Assembly (NCBI GenBank): GCA_902579605.1
Contig: CACHHD010000006.1
Span: 1 to 54,522 of the forward strand
Direction of reading: 5' to 3'
Length of the DNA stretch: 54,522 bases
Source of the DNA: an uncultured Pelagibacteraceae bacterium
Lineage (GTDB): Bacteria > Pseudomonadota > Alphaproteobacteria > Pelagibacterales > Pelagibacteraceae
Below are positions 20,474-53,571 of the stretch, one piece after another. The notes below the pieces were generated by a model that saw only the letters and a program-made list of their open reading frames with translations, ran no database searches and was not told where the DNA came from. Every line of letters starts with the position of its first letter. The first letter of the stretch is position 1. A program made the translations under genes and the position numbers.

Positions 20474-20596
20474 TTATTCAGAATATTTAATTTTCTTTTT
20501 TCTTTTAAAGCTACCTTTTCCTTTTTTGGGTTTAATGACTCGCGGCCTGTATTTAGAAGTCATTAAATCTTTGGCAAATTTATTTCTTTTCTTCAA
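20474..20596 (-). CDS. arfA: ArfA-like alternative ribosome-rescue factor (40 aa)
   Basis: Reading leftward, TTG 20596 to TAA 20474 encodes 40 residues. The core FAKDLMTSKYRPRVIKPKKG (7-26), continuing KGSFKRKK, aligns without gaps to E. coli ArfA around ...LFRQRVEKNKKGKGSYMRK. Shared residues include R-x-R-V-x-K-x-K-K-G-K-G-S-[FY]-x-R-K. ArfA recruits RF2 to ribosomes stalled on nonstop mRNA. The TTG overlaps the response-regulator stop as TTGA, so coupling is likely; an internal ATG at residue 12 would give 29 aa. The protein ends soon after the KGKGS motif, where truncated functional E. coli ArfA also ends. The family call is from memory of the motif, not a search. Confidence 0.72.
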   Translation of the reverse strand: MKKRNKFAKDLMTSKYRPRVIKPKKGKGSFKRKKKIKYSE

Positions 20597-21222
20597 ATAG
20601 TGTAGCCTTCTTTTTCACTTTTTATAAATTTATCATCTTTAAAAGTATCATTAATTTTTTTTCTTAATCTATATATGTGTGTTTCTACAGTATGAGTGTC
20701 TGCATCTTTTGAGTATTTCCAAATAGAGGTGAGTATTTCTCTTTTTTTTTGAAATGATTTATCTTTTAATAATTCAATTAATTCGATTTCTTTCTCAGTT
20801 AATTCTAAAGACTGTCCATCTTTTATCAATTGTCTAGTATTTTTATTAAGTATGTAATTATTTATTTTTAAAGATGAGTTTATCAGAAACTTTTTTTTTA
20901 CAAAATTGTTGTTAATGGCTTTATTTATTTGATCTATTGTAGCTGGTAATGGTAATTTTTCTATATTCTCTATTCCTTTAATATTTTTTGTTTGATGAAT
21001 AATAATCTTATTAATAAAATCATTTTTTAATATATTTTTAGTTTTTTTATTATTTAATGCATCTTCATGAATTATAAATCCCTGATAATTATCCATTAAC
21101 TTATTATTATTTATATTATCTACAACTTCTAAATCAAAGTTTAAATGATCTTTAAGTTCGATTAATGAGTCATTAAACTCTTTATTTCCGAATGCTAAAA
21201 TGATATTTTTTTTTTCACTCAT
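20593..21222 (-). CDS. OmpR-type DNA-binding protein with degenerate receiver domain
   Basis: 209 residues. The C-terminal half is an OmpR/PhoB winged helix (LELTEKEIELIELLKDKSFQ, then THTVETHIYRLRKKIN, ending EKEGYTI). The N-terminal half has receiver-like length and strand pattern but lacks the usual acidic pair after strand 1 (ILAFGNKE), a clear phosphoacceptor aspartate (GFIIHEDAL) and the lysine before the fourth loop (KLPLPATI). It probably works without phosphorylation or has a different input. It shares its start region with the divergent L,D-transpeptidase gene (CATG) and is coupled to the ArfA-like gene. Targets unknown. Confidence 0.82.
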   Translation of the reverse strand: MSEKKNIILAFGNKEFNDSLIELKDHLNFDLEVVDNINNNKLMDNYQGFIIHEDALNNKKTKNILKNDFINKIIIHQTKNIKGIENIEKLPLPATIDQINKAINNNFVKKKFLINSSLKINNYILNKNTRQLIKDGQSLELTEKEIELIELLKDKSFQKKREILTSIWKYSKDADTHTVETHIYRLRKKINDTFKDDKFIKSEKEGYTI

Positions 21223-30382: not shown

Positions 30383-31003
30383 TTATTCTGCATTTAGGAT
30401 AATTATTTTAGAATCATTATCTGTAATGCTTTTCTCTAATCTATACTCATAATTTCTCATCTGGGAAGTATTATTTATCTCATATTGTGCATTTTTTCCT
30501 TTCATTACGATAAATTTATGTTTTTTTACACAGTTTTCACGTGAAATATTCAATATATAGGGTAGCTTTCTAAACGCTCTACAAACGATATGATTAGAAT
30601 CAATTTTTACTGAGTTCACATCACTGCAAATAATCTTACAGTTTAATCCTAATAATTTCGATATATTGGTCAAAAAAGCTGATTTTATTGACGATTTCTC
30701 ATATAATTTCACGTGAAAATTGTAATTCTGGTAGTATAAAGCTAATATAATACCAGGAAAGCCCGCTCCTGAACCTAAATCAGCTATTCCAGTACAAGTT
30801 TTAGCATCAATAAATTTAATTAGTTGGGCGCTATCTAAAATATGTCTATCCCATATCTGCTTTTCAGTGCTTTTGGCAATTAAATTGCGTTTTTTATTAT
30901 AAAGGAGAAGATTTTTAACAAATCTATCTAATTTTTTTATCTTTAGAACATCAAATTCGAAGTTTTGGACAAGAATTCTTTTAACATTTGCTTCACTTAT
31001 CAA
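30383..31003 (-). CDS. rsmG: 16S rRNA (guanine-527-N7)-methyltransferase
   Basis: 206-residue SAM methyltransferase (GidB). Motifs: the N-terminal helical start with [23 protein letters not shown], the SAM loop [19 protein letters not shown] and [13 protein letters not shown]. The start is TTG at 31003, overlapping the mnmG stop as TTGA. The coding sequence hosts two copies of the 12-bp parS core TTTCACGTGAAA. Confidence 0.95.
30535..30546. other. parS-like centromere site 1
   Basis: TTTCACGTGAAA, a perfect 12-bp palindrome equal to the core of the canonical bacterial parS (TGTTTCACGTGAAACA). The outer two bases on the left and one on the right differ from that consensus. It lies inside rsmG about 950 bp upstream of the parB start. 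Binding by ParB is inferred from sequence and context. Confidence 0.78.
30707..30718. other. parS-like centromere site 2
   Basis: A second exact copy of TTTCACGTGAAA inside rsmG, 172 bp from the first. A 12-bp exact palindrome occurring twice within 200 bp of a ParB operon is very unlikely by chance. Outer bases deviate from the canonical 16-mer. Confidence 0.78.
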
Positions 31004-38903: not shown

Positions 38904-39176
38904 TTACTTTTTTCTTTTTGCTAATTCTTTCATAACATCTTCGATTTTTATATCGTTAGTTTCAAAGTATACTAGAAGATGATATATCACATCTGCACTT
39001 TCATGAATTTTATTTGTGTTTTTTTCCACAGACTCTATAAGTTCGCTTAGCTCCTCTTGAACTTTAGAAAGAGATAAGTTTTTGTCATTTAGTAGTTTAT
39101 TTGTATAAGATTTATCAGGAGAAGAGTTTTTTCGATCTCTGATTGTTTTTATTAAATCTTCTAAATCTTTAAGCAT
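38904..39176 (-). CDS. hisE: phosphoribosyl-ATP pyrophosphatase
   Basis: 90-residue all-helical enzyme of the MazG-like superfamily, second step of histidine synthesis. Conserved metal-binding glutamates are in KVQEELSELIESVE, followed by ESADVIYHLLVYFE. One base separates it from hisF. Confidence 0.93.
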   Translation of the reverse strand: MLKDLEDLIKTIRDRKNSSPDKSYTNKLLNDKNLSLSKVQEELSELIESVEKNTNKIHESADVIYHLLVYFETNDIKIEDVMKELAKRKK

Positions 39177-39177
39177 T

Positions 39178-47191: not shown

Positions 47192-47772
47192 AATTTATAA
47201 TTACCAATATAATTCTTTATTTCATTTATCGGCAATCCCATAATAGAATTTCTATCTCCTTTGATGTATTCAAATAAATCTAAGCCATCCGCTTCTATTT
47301 GGTAAACACCATATGATAAAAGAGTTTCGGTTTTTATCTTTTGTAAATAAATCTCTAATTTTTTATCTGACAAATTTTTCATTTTAAGTTCTGATTTATC
47401 AGTATAATTCCATATCATTGAGCCATTTTTTGAAATGCAAACTGAGCTTATTAGGAAATGTTTTTTTCCATTTAACTTTTTAAGTATTTGCATAGCTTCA
47501 CTTCTTGATGTTGGTTTGTTAATAAGCTTGGAGTCTAAAGATATCACGCTATCTGCACCGAGGACGAGCTGGTCTGGTGTTTTTGAGCTTATTTTAATTG
47601 ACTTTAATTCGGCTAAATTTTTTGAAATTATTTCAGGGTCTGCACCTTTTTCAAGAAGAGCGTCTTTTACTTGATCCTCATCAACATTTGAGGGAACAAC
47701 TGTCGAGTCAACACCGCTGTCATCAAGTATTTTTTTTCTGACACCGCTTTTAGATGCTAATATAATTTTCAT
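47188..47772 (-). CDS. maf: Maf-family nucleoside triphosphate pyrophosphatase
   Basis: 194 residues. N-terminal phosphate-binding IILASKSGVRKKILDDSG, catalytic LVLGADSVISLD, and C-terminal YGVYQIEADGLDLFEYIKGDRNSIMGLPI. Maf enzymes hydrolyse noncanonical or modified nucleotides; substrate subtype not determinable here. Overlaps ppsR as ATGA. Confidence 0.95.
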   Translation of the reverse strand: MKIILASKSGVRKKILDDSGVDSTVVPSNVDEDQVKDALLEKGADPEIISKNLAELKSIKISSKTPDQLVLGADSVISLDSKLINKPTSRSEAMQILKKLNGKKHFLISSVCISKNGSMIWNYTDKSELKMKNLSDKKLEIYLQKIKTETLLSYGVYQIEADGLDLFEYIKGDRNSIMGLPINEIKNYIGNYKL

Positions 47773-48590
47773 TTACTCTTTTTAATTTCTATTATTTTAA
47801 TTATTGACGCCGCGGTTTCCTCAACAGACCTCCGGGTTACATCAATAGTTGGCCAATTATTTTTTTTAAAGAGATTTTTAGAGTCTTCTACTTCTTTTTT
47901 TATTGATTTTATGTCTGTATAATTAGAAGATCTGTTTTCTTGCATTAATGCCACTCGATTGCGCCTGATATCAACAAGTCTTTCTGGGTCAGCGAATAAA
48001 CCTATAATACAGCATTTGAAATTATTTGATGTTAATGTTTCTGGAATAGGTTGATTAGGAACTAAAGGTATATTGGTGGTTTTATAACCTCTGTTCGCTA
48101 AATAAAATGATGTTGGTGTTTTGCTAGTTCTGCTTACTCCAAGTAAGATTACATCTGATTTAAATAAGTCTTCGGTTTTTTTCCCATCATCATGTGACAT
48201 TGTAAACTGGATTGCTTCGATCCTCTTGTAATAATCTTCATCTAGAACATGTTGTGCGCTAGGTTTGTGTATGGCTTTTTGATTGAGTAGTTTTGAAAAG
48301 GCGAGAATTAAATTACCTAAAACTCCGAAGCAAGGTATGTTTGCTCCTTCACATTTTTTTGATAAATATTTTGCTAATTTTGTTTCAACAACCGTGTAAA
48401 GAACAATTGGATTGCGTATTTTTAAACTTTCTTCTACAATTTTATCTACTTGTTGTTGTGTTCTAACAAAGAAAAACTCTTTTTTTTCATATTCAAAGCT
48501 TTTAAATTGTGATTGTAGTGACAAAAAAATTCTATCCAACGTTTCGCCTGTGGAATCAGAAATAAGATATACATTGTATTTTTCGTTCAT
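47769..48590 (-). CDS. PEP synthetase/PPDK regulatory protein (kinase-phosphotransferase)
   Basis: 273-residue DUF299 protein. YLISDSTGETLDRIFLSL at the N-terminus, the ADP-binding P-loop-like VILLGVSRTSKTPTSFYLANRGYKTTNIPLV, then RNRVALMQENRSSNYTD. Members switch phosphoenolpyruvate synthase or pyruvate phosphate dikinase by ADP/Pi-dependent phosphorylation of a threonine. The target gene is not in the window. First leftward gene beside the putative origin. Confidence 0.94.
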   Translation of the reverse strand: MNEKYNVYLISDSTGETLDRIFLSLQSQFKSFEYEKKEFFFVRTQQQVDKIVEESLKIRNPIVLYTVVETKLAKYLSKKCEGANIPCFGVLGNLILAFSKLLNQKAIHKPSAQHVLDEDYYKRIEAIQFTMSHDDGKKTEDLFKSDVILLGVSRTSKTPTSFYLANRGYKTTNIPLVPNQPIPETLTSNNFKCCIIGLFADPERLVDIRRNRVALMQENRSSNYTDIKSIKKEVEDSKNLFKKNNWPTIDVTRRSVEETAASIIKIIEIKKSK

Positions 48591-48873
48591 AATTCTGTTA
48601 GTAATAATTGAATAACTCCCTCTTATACCCCGTTGTATATATTGAAAAAAAATTATTCACATCAATAAACATATTTATAACATCTTATTCTATGTTAATT
48701 GTTTTATACATCAAAACATCAATGTGTGAATATAATTCAAATAATAATTTAATTAATGTTAAAATTTAACAAGTTAATGGGTATAAAATGTTTAAAACAA
48801 GGTATAATTAATTATAATCTCTACCAACATGACCTATTACAATAACTACTCTTATTTATATAATATTTAATTT
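48591..48873. other. candidate chromosomal replication origin (oriC)
   Basis: The longest gene-free stretch in the window, between the leftward ppsR and rightward hemE; in Caulobacter and Rickettsia the origin lies next to hemE. It contains a DnaA box TTATTCACA at 48653-48661 and a one-mismatch box in opposite orientation at 48725-48733 (TGTGAATAT), both flanking an AT-only-like stretch, a cluster of TTAA motifs (48749-48777), and a 14-bp palindrome TATAATTAATTATA at 48803-48816. The genes diverge outward on both sides. It probably also carries the ppsR and hemE promoters; TATAAT at 48859-48864 is only 9 bp from the hemE ATG. Only one box is exact, so certainty is moderate. Confidence 0.6.
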
Positions 48874-49884
48874 ATGAGTAAATTGTTAAATTGTTTAATT
48901 AAAAAAGATTTTTCTTGTGTACCAGTTTGGTTCATGAGACAAGCAGGTAGATATTTGCCAGAATTTAGAGAATTAAGACAACAAAACCCAGATTTTATAA
49001 AACTATGTTTTGATAGTGATCTTGCTACAAAAATCACCCTACAACCATTAAATAGATTTAATCTTGACGCAGCAATAATATTCTCAGATATATTAGTCGT
49101 CCTTTACGCACTTGGACAAAAAATTAAATTCAGAGACAAAAAGGGCCCTTGGAATTTTAATTTTAGCATAGATAAATTATTAGAGACAAATGAAAAAGAT
49201 TTTACATCTAAGCTTAATCCAATTTATAAAGCAATTAATAAAACAAGAGGAATTCTTAAAAAAGACAAATCTTTAATAGCTTTTATTGGCGCGCCTTGGA
49301 CCTTAATAATTTATTTATATAATTTAAAAGAAAAAAAAAATTTAAAAGAAGGTACAATTATTAAAAACAAAAAGGAGGTTGAACTTGTTTTAAAAAAATT
49401 AGTCGAATTTCTTAAAATTCATATAATTAATCAAAAAGAGGCAGGAGCCGACATAATACAAATATTTGACTCTTGGGCCGGTCTTATCGAAGAAGAAAAT
49501 ATAAATCAATACTGTTACAAACCAAACAAAGAGCTAGTTAGTTTTTGTAAAGAAAATAATATTCCTTCTATTTGCTTTCCCAAGGGCCTTAATCAGAAAT
49601 ATAAAAAATTTATAGAAGAAGTTCAGCCAGATGCAATTAACATAGATCAAGAAATTGACCCTATATGGGCCAGAGACAACCTAGGAGAAATTTGTATTCA
49701 AGGTGGATTAGATCCAAAATTACTTCTAAAAAGTGAAAAATTAGTAATAGAAGAAACCGATAAGTATTTAGAGATTTTCAAGAATAATCCCTACATATTT
49801 AATTTAGGACATGGTATTCTACCTGAAACAAATCCAGATATAATTAAAAAAATTGTAGACAAGGTTAATTTAATAAAAAGATGA
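48874..49884 (+). CDS. hemE: uroporphyrinogen decarboxylase
   Basis: 336 residues. The signature PVWFMRQAGRYLPEFRELR is at the N-terminus, with the catalytic aspartate in NLDAAIIFSDILVV, FIGAPWTLIIYL, and FNLGHGILPETNPD near the C-terminus. It converts uroporphyrinogen III to coproporphyrinogen III. ATGA overlap with hemH. Confidence 0.97.
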   Translation: MSKLLNCLIKKDFSCVPVWFMRQAGRYLPEFRELRQQNPDFIKLCFDSDLATKITLQPLNRFNLDAAIIFSDILVVLYALGQKIKFRDKKGPWNFNFSIDKLLETNEKDFTSKLNPIYKAINKTRGILKKDKSLIAFIGAPWTLIIYLYNLKEKKNLKEGTIIKNKKEVELVLKKLVEFLKIHIINQKEAGADIIQIFDSWAGLIEEENINQYCYKPNKELVSFCKENNIPSICFPKGLNQKYKKFIEEVQPDAINIDQEIDPIWARDNLGEICIQGGLDPKLLLKSEKLVIEETDKYLEIFKNNPYIFNLGHGILPETNPDIIKKIVDKVNLIKR

Positions 49885-50873
49885 ATAATGAGCACCCAAA
49901 AATAAATTTCGGTAAGACAGGAGTCCTATTGGTTAATCTAGGAACACCAGATTCTACTAAATGGATTGATATAAGAAAGTATTTAAAAGAATTTTTATCT
50001 GACAGAAGAGTGATAGAAGCTAACCCTTTTCTTTGGCAGACTATTCTCAATTTATTTATACTGAACCTGAGACCATCTAAAACCGCCAAGGCATATAAAG
50101 AAATATGGATGCAAAAAGAAAACATGTCACCGTTAAGATATTACACAATTATGCAAACAAAAAAGTTATTAGACAGAATCGGCAACAAGAATTTAATCGT
50201 TGATTATGCTATGCGATATGGAAACCCAAGTATAAAAAGCAAAATATACAAATTACACGAAGCGGGCTGCGAAAAGCTTGTAGTTCTACCTCTTTATCCT
50301 CAATATGCAGCCGCAACAACCGCCACTGTTTGTGACGAGGTTTATCGAGTTTTAATGAGCATGAGATGGCAACCTAGTTTACAAATAATACCTCATTACG
50401 AGTCAGATCCGCTTTATATTAAAGCGCTCATTAATAGTTTAAATTTTAAAATATCCAAATTAAGCTGGAAACCAAATCTCGTTTTAGCATCATAACATGG
50501 AATACCTCAAAAATATTTTGATAAAGGCGATCCTTATTATTGTTACTGTCATAAAACGTCTAGATTGCTCTCCCAAAATTTTAAAGATGTTGAGATAAAA
50601 ACAACTTTTCAGTCAAGGTTTGGTCCGGAAGCGTGGCTCAAACCATATACAGACAAAACTCTAGAGTCTTTACCAAAACAAGGAAAAAAAAATGTTTTAG
50701 TGATCTGTCCTGGTTTTTCCTCTGACTGTGTTGAAACTCTTGAGGAAATTTCTATACAAGGCAAGGAAAGCTTCCTGAAGGCTGGAGGAGAAAATTTCGA
50801 TGTTGTCCCATGCTTGAACGATAATGATGATCATATAAACTTACTTGAGAAATTAACAAAAAATTTTTTATAA
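49881..50873 (+). pseudogene. hemH: ferrochelatase, interrupted by an in-frame TAA
   Basis: The last heme step, insertion of iron into protoporphyrin IX. The reading frame runs 49881-50873 (330 codons) with clear family sequence throughout: VLLVNLGTPDS, YPQYAAATTATV, then after the stop HGIPQKYFDKGDPYYCYCHKT, QSRFGPEAWLKPYT and CPGFSSDCVETLEEI. A single TAA at 50493-50495 (codon 205) interrupts it without a frame change, where relatives have a residue before the catalytic histidine (LASxHGIP). TAT or TAC (tyrosine) would differ by one base. It may be a sequencing error or a real nonsense mutation. Ends one base before hemJ. Confidence 0.9.
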
Positions 50874-53290: not shown

Positions 53291-53398
53291 ACACTCAATT
53301 ATAAGATTAATAATTTAGAACTGTCAATTTGTAATTATATACTTTTAACATAGCTAATAGCATCATATAGTGCGATATAAATAATGATCGAGTATCTG

Positions 53399-53427
53399 TT
53401 TACGTTAGTGAATAAATTAATTATACT
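53399..53427 (+). promoter_or_regulatory. sigma-70-type promoter of tRNA-Gly
   Basis: TTTACG at 53399-53404 and TATACT at 53422-53427 are exactly 17 bp apart, placing the start of transcription within a few bases of the tRNA 5' end at 53437. The 146-bp gap upstream (53291-53436) shows no gene; it also has to carry the Lon-N-like promoter on the other strand. Confidence 0.6.
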
Positions 53428-53436
53428 ATTTTTATT

Positions 53437-53511
53437 GCGGGCATAGCTCAGTGGTAGAGCGTCTCGTTGCCAACGAGAAGGTCGAGGGTTCAAGTCCCTT
53501 TGCCCGCTCCA
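53437..53511 (+). tRNA. tRNA-Gly (anticodon GCC), CCA encoded
   Basis: A complete cloverleaf: 7-bp acceptor stem GCGGGCA/TGCCCGC, D arm GCTC...GAGC, anticodon stem TCTCG/CGAGA enclosing TTGCCAA with anticodon GCC, T arm with GGGTTCAAGTCCC, discriminator T and an encoded CCA (53509-53511). Reads GGC and GGT glycine codons. Free-standing with its own promoter. Confidence 0.98.
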
Positions 53512-53571
53512 AACAATAGCGACCAAATTTCCATTTTTTTTTGCTAATTTTAAGATATTATTATCCTCATT

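Follow-up and report, generated by a model that had tools for sequence, protein, structure and literature searches.

A conserved gap between divergent PPSR and hemE genes as the very probable replication origin of a SAR11 genome

The window, by which we mean the whole 54,522-bp stretch of DNA analysed here (G000:C6:1-54522), belongs to a Pelagibacteraceae (SAR11) genome of 974 kb that is 80.5% complete and distributed over 29 contigs. Within it, a reverse-strand gene of the PPSR/DUF299 (COG1806) type and a forward-strand hemE gene diverge from a gap of 283 bp, the proposed oriC. The genes and features of the locus are as follows.

47769-48590, reverse strand: flanking PPSR/DUF299 (COG1806-type) gene (NF003742, 314 bits, cut-off 225)
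48591-48873, no strand: PPSR-hemE gap, proposed oriC
48596-48604, reverse strand: inverted DnaA-box-like site TTACTAACA at the PPSR end (10.0 bits); the aligned block TGTTAATAA is kept across genera, and genus g9 has TTATAAACA there
48653-48661, forward strand: DnaA box TTATTCACA (12.4 bits); five relatives of genus g1 have TTACTCACA
48693-48701, reverse strand: weak box-like site CAATTAACA (6.2 bits)
48725-48733, reverse strand: inverted box-like site ATATTCACA (8.8 bits); replaced by ATACTCACA in relatives including L007 and L034
48821-48829, forward strand: degenerate box CTACCAACA of the proposed unwinding element (5.2 bits)
48830-48833, forward strand: 4-bp spacer TGAC
48834-48848, forward strand: proposed DnaA-trio array CTA TTA CAA TAA CTA, with a middle T in three of the five triplets
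48874-49884, forward strand: flanking hemE gene (TIGR01464, 322.5 bits, cut-off 302.95)

Both flanking genes of the hemE/COG1806 (DUF299/PPSR) arrangement are therefore identified above their NCBIfam cut-offs, and hemE is followed by hemH, a UPF0093 gene that we take to be hemJ, and rho. The hemH frame (49881-50873, forward strand) contains one in-frame stop with Pfam Ferrochelatase matches on both sides, reflecting either a broken gene or a sequence error. The GC fraction of the gap is 0.19, compared with 0.22-0.41 per kb across the window, and its AT content is above that of the genome. When the first 908 bases, an open end, are left aside, the gap is narrowly the longest stretch of the window outside open reading frames of at least 100 aa, as an earlier, sequence-only reading of this DNA had stated together with the divergence of its flanks; the runners-up are 53291-53571 (281 bp, containing a tRNA-Gly) and 38904-39177 (274 bp). 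Rfam models gave no match at 47500-50500 with E-values up to 1 and only the tRNA-Gly over the whole window, and the single-strand folding of the gap is ordinary (z of -1.0).

The sequence-only reading had also identified an exact DnaA box at 48653-48661 and an inverted near-match at 48725-48733, and both are borne out: TTATTCACA matches TTATNCACA exactly and TTATCCACA with one mismatch, and the inverted ATATTCACA is one base off TTATTCACA. However, a single box is weak evidence by itself, because counts of these patterns lie near or below chance. The window contains 13 one-mismatch matches to TTATCCACA versus 16.2 expected, the whole genome contains 28 copies of TTATNCACA versus 40 of a reversed control pattern, and shuffling the gap produces one TTATNCACA in 4.6% of cases. 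In addition, TTATTCACA occurs in just one of the 29 g1 gaps, that of the window, and the sister locus L033 carries TTACTCACA at its position. A matrix trained without g1 recovers more: five sites scoring 5 bits or more in the gap, versus a shuffle mean of 1.7, with four of 200 shuffles reaching five, and none of the 283-bp tiles of the 54.5-kb window has more matrix sites than the gap. The gap thus holds several boxes by the matrix and one copy by the strict TTATNCACA pattern, so that the earlier count of about two boxes, from which a minimal origin had been suggested, was an undercount. The 14-bp palindrome listed among the origin marks does exist (TATAATTAATTATA, 48803-48816) and occurs in three of 72 gaps (the window, L033 and L035); the TTAA clusters named with it are not enriched (9 versus 6.8 expected, sd 2.1), and both were set aside as origin marks. 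The case for an origin rests on comparison with relatives.

To this end, we compared 75 loci: 30 best matches including the window, 40 picked across genera, and five Pelagibacteraceae contigs matched through the hemE of the window. hemE itself was found in 122 of 147 genomes of the family. The divergent PPSR-hemE pair and a gap of 255-297 bp are found in 72 of the 75 loci, covering ten genera and one unassigned contig, with no identical pair among the 72 gaps; some hemE starts are alignment proxies, so a few of these gap lengths may be off by some codons. The three loci without the arrangement all belong to genus g9.

DnaA boxes of the form TTATYMACA are strongly enriched in these gaps when each genus is compared with 200 dinucleotide shuffles. 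We found 37 copies in the 29 gaps of g1 (2.3 expected), 12 in nine gaps of g2 (0.7), 12 in six of g3 (0.6), 33 in 15 of g4 (1.2), seven in three of g5 (0.2), four in two of g6 (0.2), three in three of g12 (0.2) and three in the one gap of g14 (0.1), and in each of these genera none of the 200 shuffles reached the observed number. Genera g7 and g8 and the unassigned contig have one copy each, a number that 14-24 of 200 shuffles also reach. Tile scans of four complete relatives, with matrices trained without the tested genus, show that no other tile is as dense as the gap in the roughly 485 kb scanned in G026 (six sites) or the roughly 514 kb scanned in G005 (five sites); with three sites each, it ties with three other tiles in G040 and with two in G009.

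The DnaA proteins of these organisms allow the shifted form of the boxes to be interpreted. The DnaA of the window genome passes TIGR00362 and shares RRSR, LPEIG and RDHTT with domain IV of E. coli DnaA (1j1v), residues that we take to be DNA-contacting; among 12 SAR11 DnaA loci, RRSR and RDHTT are present in all 12 and LPEIG in 11, with LPDIG in one. Since the recognition residues are canonical, the TTATTAACA form is more likely a weaker or AT-drifted site than the sign of a new specificity.

The edge of the gap next to hemE carries a second type of signal. We anchored an alignment on the hemE-adjacent box (74 rows: the 72 loci and two g9 loci); this anchoring fixes the spacer at one length in every row, and the phase after it is constant. 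Averaged over 12 groups, the middle position of the triplets is T at a frequency of 0.80, versus 0.11 and 0.09 in the other phases, and the third place is A at 0.89; none of 1,000 row shuffles reaches this pattern, a result that is not to be read as a probability because the rows are related. A looser published rule, at least three NAN within 16 bp, is satisfied by 42 of 74 rows compared with 43.6 in shuffles and has no discriminating power here, since shuffles satisfy it equally often. The element does not look coding, because TAA stops fall in the frame that puts the variable base third. In the window itself, the boxes and triplets are degenerate: the hemE-edge box CTACCAACA has three mismatches to both TTATTAACA and TTATCCACA, beyond a limit of two, whereas many g3, g4, g6 and g14 loci have TTATTMACA at the aligned position, with zero or one mismatch. 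The stretch AACATGACCTATTAC at 48826-48840, which joins box, spacer and triplets, has its sole exact copy in the genome here.

Two g9 genomes, G009 (L177) and G022 (L178), provide an informative exception. There, PPSR and the gap are followed directly by rho, named from its likeness to the rho of the window, and hemE, hemH and hemJ are absent between them. Both genomes nevertheless keep the PPSR-end box and the hemE-edge element, the latter now before rho, as TTATAAACATGACCTAATAAC in G009 and TTATAAACATTCCCTAATAAT in G022. Its persistence without hemE shows that the element is more than a piece of hemE regulation. G009 has a hemE homologue (29% identity) at 718 kb and its PPSR gene at 140.5 kb; we observed that this distant homologue is not far from the inferred terminus. 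As a separate observation, the g9 locus L075 contains two exact parS-like sites, at 1884 and 5143, no more than about 6 kb away from a hemE homologue with 34% identity.

Strand asymmetry was analyzed in relatives only, because the window genome is in 29 contigs, and was calculated from sampled stretches covering 37-44% of each of the four complete genomes. Third-position (GC3) skew turns at the gap or within about 45 kb of it in three of the four. In G026, the best GC and GC3 arcs start at the 327-kb stretch, which includes the gap at 335.6 kb, with a finer GC3 minimum at 292-302 kb, 34-44 kb from it. In G005, the GC3 arc starts at 1,102 kb and the cumulative GC3 minimum falls in the 1,086-1,096 kb bin, with the gap at 1,090.1 kb. 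In G009, the arcs start at 182 kb and the cumulative GC3 minimum is in the 131-141 kb bin, with the gap at 141.4 kb. The skew of G040 is weak and ambiguous and does not localise the turn (best arcs from 257 kb for GC and 578 kb for GC3; gap at 359 kb). For GC3, a turn at or near the gap, which the sequence-only reading had named as supporting evidence, is seen in three relatives; plain GC is less clear, and AT skew agrees in G026, roughly follows the GC of the same genome in G040, and disagrees with the locus in G005 and G009.

Sites matching a consensus that we take to be parS-like lie within 20 kb of the gap. Three were found in the evenly sampled 1.6 Mb, each in a different one of the four genomes and at distances of 9.4, 16.9 and 19.7 kb, and none in the 1.48 Mb sampled more than 40 kb from the gap. 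A fourth lies about 18.5 kb from the G040 gap, in an extra stretch outside the even sampling. Among the 40 cross-genus loci, eight hold such a site (seven in g4 and one in g9, L075), and L003-L037 have none. The best match in the window, which ends 4.6 kb past hemE, has three mismatches and is located at 30533.

Diverging genes also suggest a different explanation: that the gap is a two-way promoter region of PPSR and hemE, with conserved transcription-factor sites, and that the origin lies elsewhere. Promoter-like matches in the gap number eight versus 4.6 expected from shuffles, and, against four close relatives, the gap as a whole is 0.72-0.93 identical, an ordinary level that does not exceed that of the other gaps compared. 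We consider this explanation very unlikely in view of the hemE-edge element and PPSR-end box that persist in the two g9 genomes without hemE at the locus, the box-like sites that are densest at the gap in two genomes and tied in two, and the skew and parS-like sites that point to its neighbourhood. A promoter role alongside the origin role is possible.

The CtrA and IHF sites associated with other origins of this type are missing from the gap of the window. It contains neither TTAA-N7-TTAA, the CtrA pattern, nor the IHF consensus WATCAN5WTR, which across the family occur 34 times in 30 of 72 gaps (17.5 expected) and 36 times in 31 of 72 (23.1 expected), respectively. We did not treat the missing CtrA sites as excluding this origin type, because accepted members, one Wolbachia strain and Ehrlichia ruminantium, are also described as lacking them (PMC1914354). 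In g1, the extended pattern TTAA-N7-TTAAC appears 17 times in 15 of 29 gaps versus 1.6 expected, although CtrA seems absent, and these repeats could represent a response-regulator (CtrA-like) switch rather than DnaA sites. We regard this as very unlikely: the window gap has no TTAA-N7-TTAA, a survey records no ctrA in Pelagibacter (PMC2877005), and the repeats may instead be closely spaced TTAACA box cores. Moreover, of the four OmpR-type regulators in the window genome, one of which is PhoB by cut-off, three score 23.6, 140.5 and 102.8 among the matches listed for a Rhodobacter-type CtrA model, far below its cut-off of 350. CtrA control at this origin appears unlikely. The window also encodes an OmpR-type DNA-binding protein (20593-21222, reverse strand) whose Pfam match is the C-terminal DNA-binding domain, without a receiver domain. 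GANTC is depleted, with two occurrences in the 72 gaps versus 10.7 expected and none of 200 shuffles as low; a gradient of GANTC methylation from origin to terminus is reported for Pelagibacter (PMC9516812).

In the 11 complete genomes that we compared, 61-74 kb separate dnaA from PPSR. The start of the G005 record is about 1 kb away from the DnaA C-terminal domain and about 71 kb away from the inferred origin. An origin beside dnaA is extremely unlikely: such an arrangement is common in bacteria (PMC6669920), an automatic rule applied to a set including Pelagibacter assigned oriC to dnaA if the skew lay within 7% of the chromosome (PMC2031905), and the best plain-GC arc of G005 starts at the record start beside dnaA (0.123 versus 0.118 at 1,102 kb), but the GC3 of G005 and G026 favours the hemE locus, and the better box cluster next to dnaA that the sequence-only reading had named as counter-evidence was not seen. 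Within 2.5 kb, dnaA is accompanied by two sites of 8 bits or more in G026, none in G005 (record start not wrapped), two in G040 and one in G009, and in the window genome a single weak site lies just beyond dnaA.

Taken together, the conserved gap length, the box enrichment, the phased element kept without hemE and the parS-like sites support the candidate origin that had been proposed beside hemE, and we conclude from these sequence comparisons that the gap is very probably the oriC of this SAR11 genome, of the alphaproteobacterial hemE/DUF299 type. Its predicted anatomy comprises the inverted box-like site at the PPSR end, the box-like sites in the middle, and, at the hemE edge, a box separated by four bases from triplets in constant phase. 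If initiation proceeds as in the basal unwinding system described for Bacillus subtilis and other bacteria, DnaA-ATP would load onto the boxes, and a DnaA filament would run from the hemE-edge box onto the triplets, whose complement reads 3'-GAT/AAT/TAT-5'. Melting of the AT-rich DNA preceding hemE and loading of the helicase would follow, with one fork leaving through PPSR and the other through hemE.

This origin type is known from Caulobacter and Rickettsia. The Caulobacter origin was identified experimentally at the same hemE/COG1806 locus (PMC1914354), and the Cori of C. crescentus is described with the same two flanking genes, an AT-rich gap and DnaA boxes; unlike the window gap, which has neither consensus, it carries five CtrA sites and one IHF site (PMC1914354). 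The oriC of Rickettsia prowazekii, between hemE and RP001, has the same flanks and a gap of 384 bp with 82.6% AT, about 100 bp longer, and Rickettsia origins are reported to carry CtrA sites (PMC1914354). At the family level, the SAR11 element resembles the basal unwinding system in its box, its short spacer and its phased triplets complementary to 3'-GAT/AAT/TAT-5' (PMC8287927, PMC6669920); it differs in lying beside hemE rather than dnaA and in its TTATTMACA-type boxes, and in the window two of the middle triplets break the pattern. Among the titles and abstracts of the open-access literature that we searched, none places a SAR11 origin at hemE or reports DnaA-trios in alphaproteobacteria, and we found no paper there on the anatomy of the SAR11 origin.

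A related element may extend beyond the family. Across the class, hemE was found in 122 of 144 genomes, and in 21 of the 29 best-match loci taken from other families, PPSR and hemE diverge across 289-1067 bp. A regular expression for the element found little. An expectation-maximisation motif search on 28 of the 29 loci (L197-L225; L218 was dropped for having too little upstream DNA) identified a CTAC/CAAC-rich element before hemE, with a log-likelihood of 229.5 versus 96-120 in six shuffled sets; the sites of L205, L206 and L225 look doubtful, and related loci inflate such scores. In the 26 bp upstream of this element, TTNTNCACA is matched with at most one mismatch in 11 of the 28 loci, compared with 1.3 expected from composition-only shuffles. 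These results hint at a class-wide element before hemE.

More broadly, we suggest tentatively, at somewhat less than even chances, that the SAR11 origin is a reduced, CtrA-independent version of the alphaproteobacterial type, with a near-constant gap, shifted TTATTAACA-type boxes read by a DnaA with canonical residues, depletion of GANTC and a phased unwinding element that persists without hemE, and that hemE-type origins may be marked throughout the class by a related triplet element preceding hemE. If this is true, the element could be used for placing oriC in fragmentary genomes. SAR11 bacteria rank among the most numerous cells of the ocean, and a sequence-defined oriC would offer an anchor for read-depth estimates of growth, fragmentary genomes included; a study of SAR11 coverage slopes anchors on a terminus inferred from coverage (PMC9589681). 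With dnaA so far from the proposed origin in the complete genomes, our analysis argues against placing SAR11 origins at dnaA by convention, and it raises the question of how initiation is timed in organisms without a reported CtrA and with GANTC depleted at the origin.
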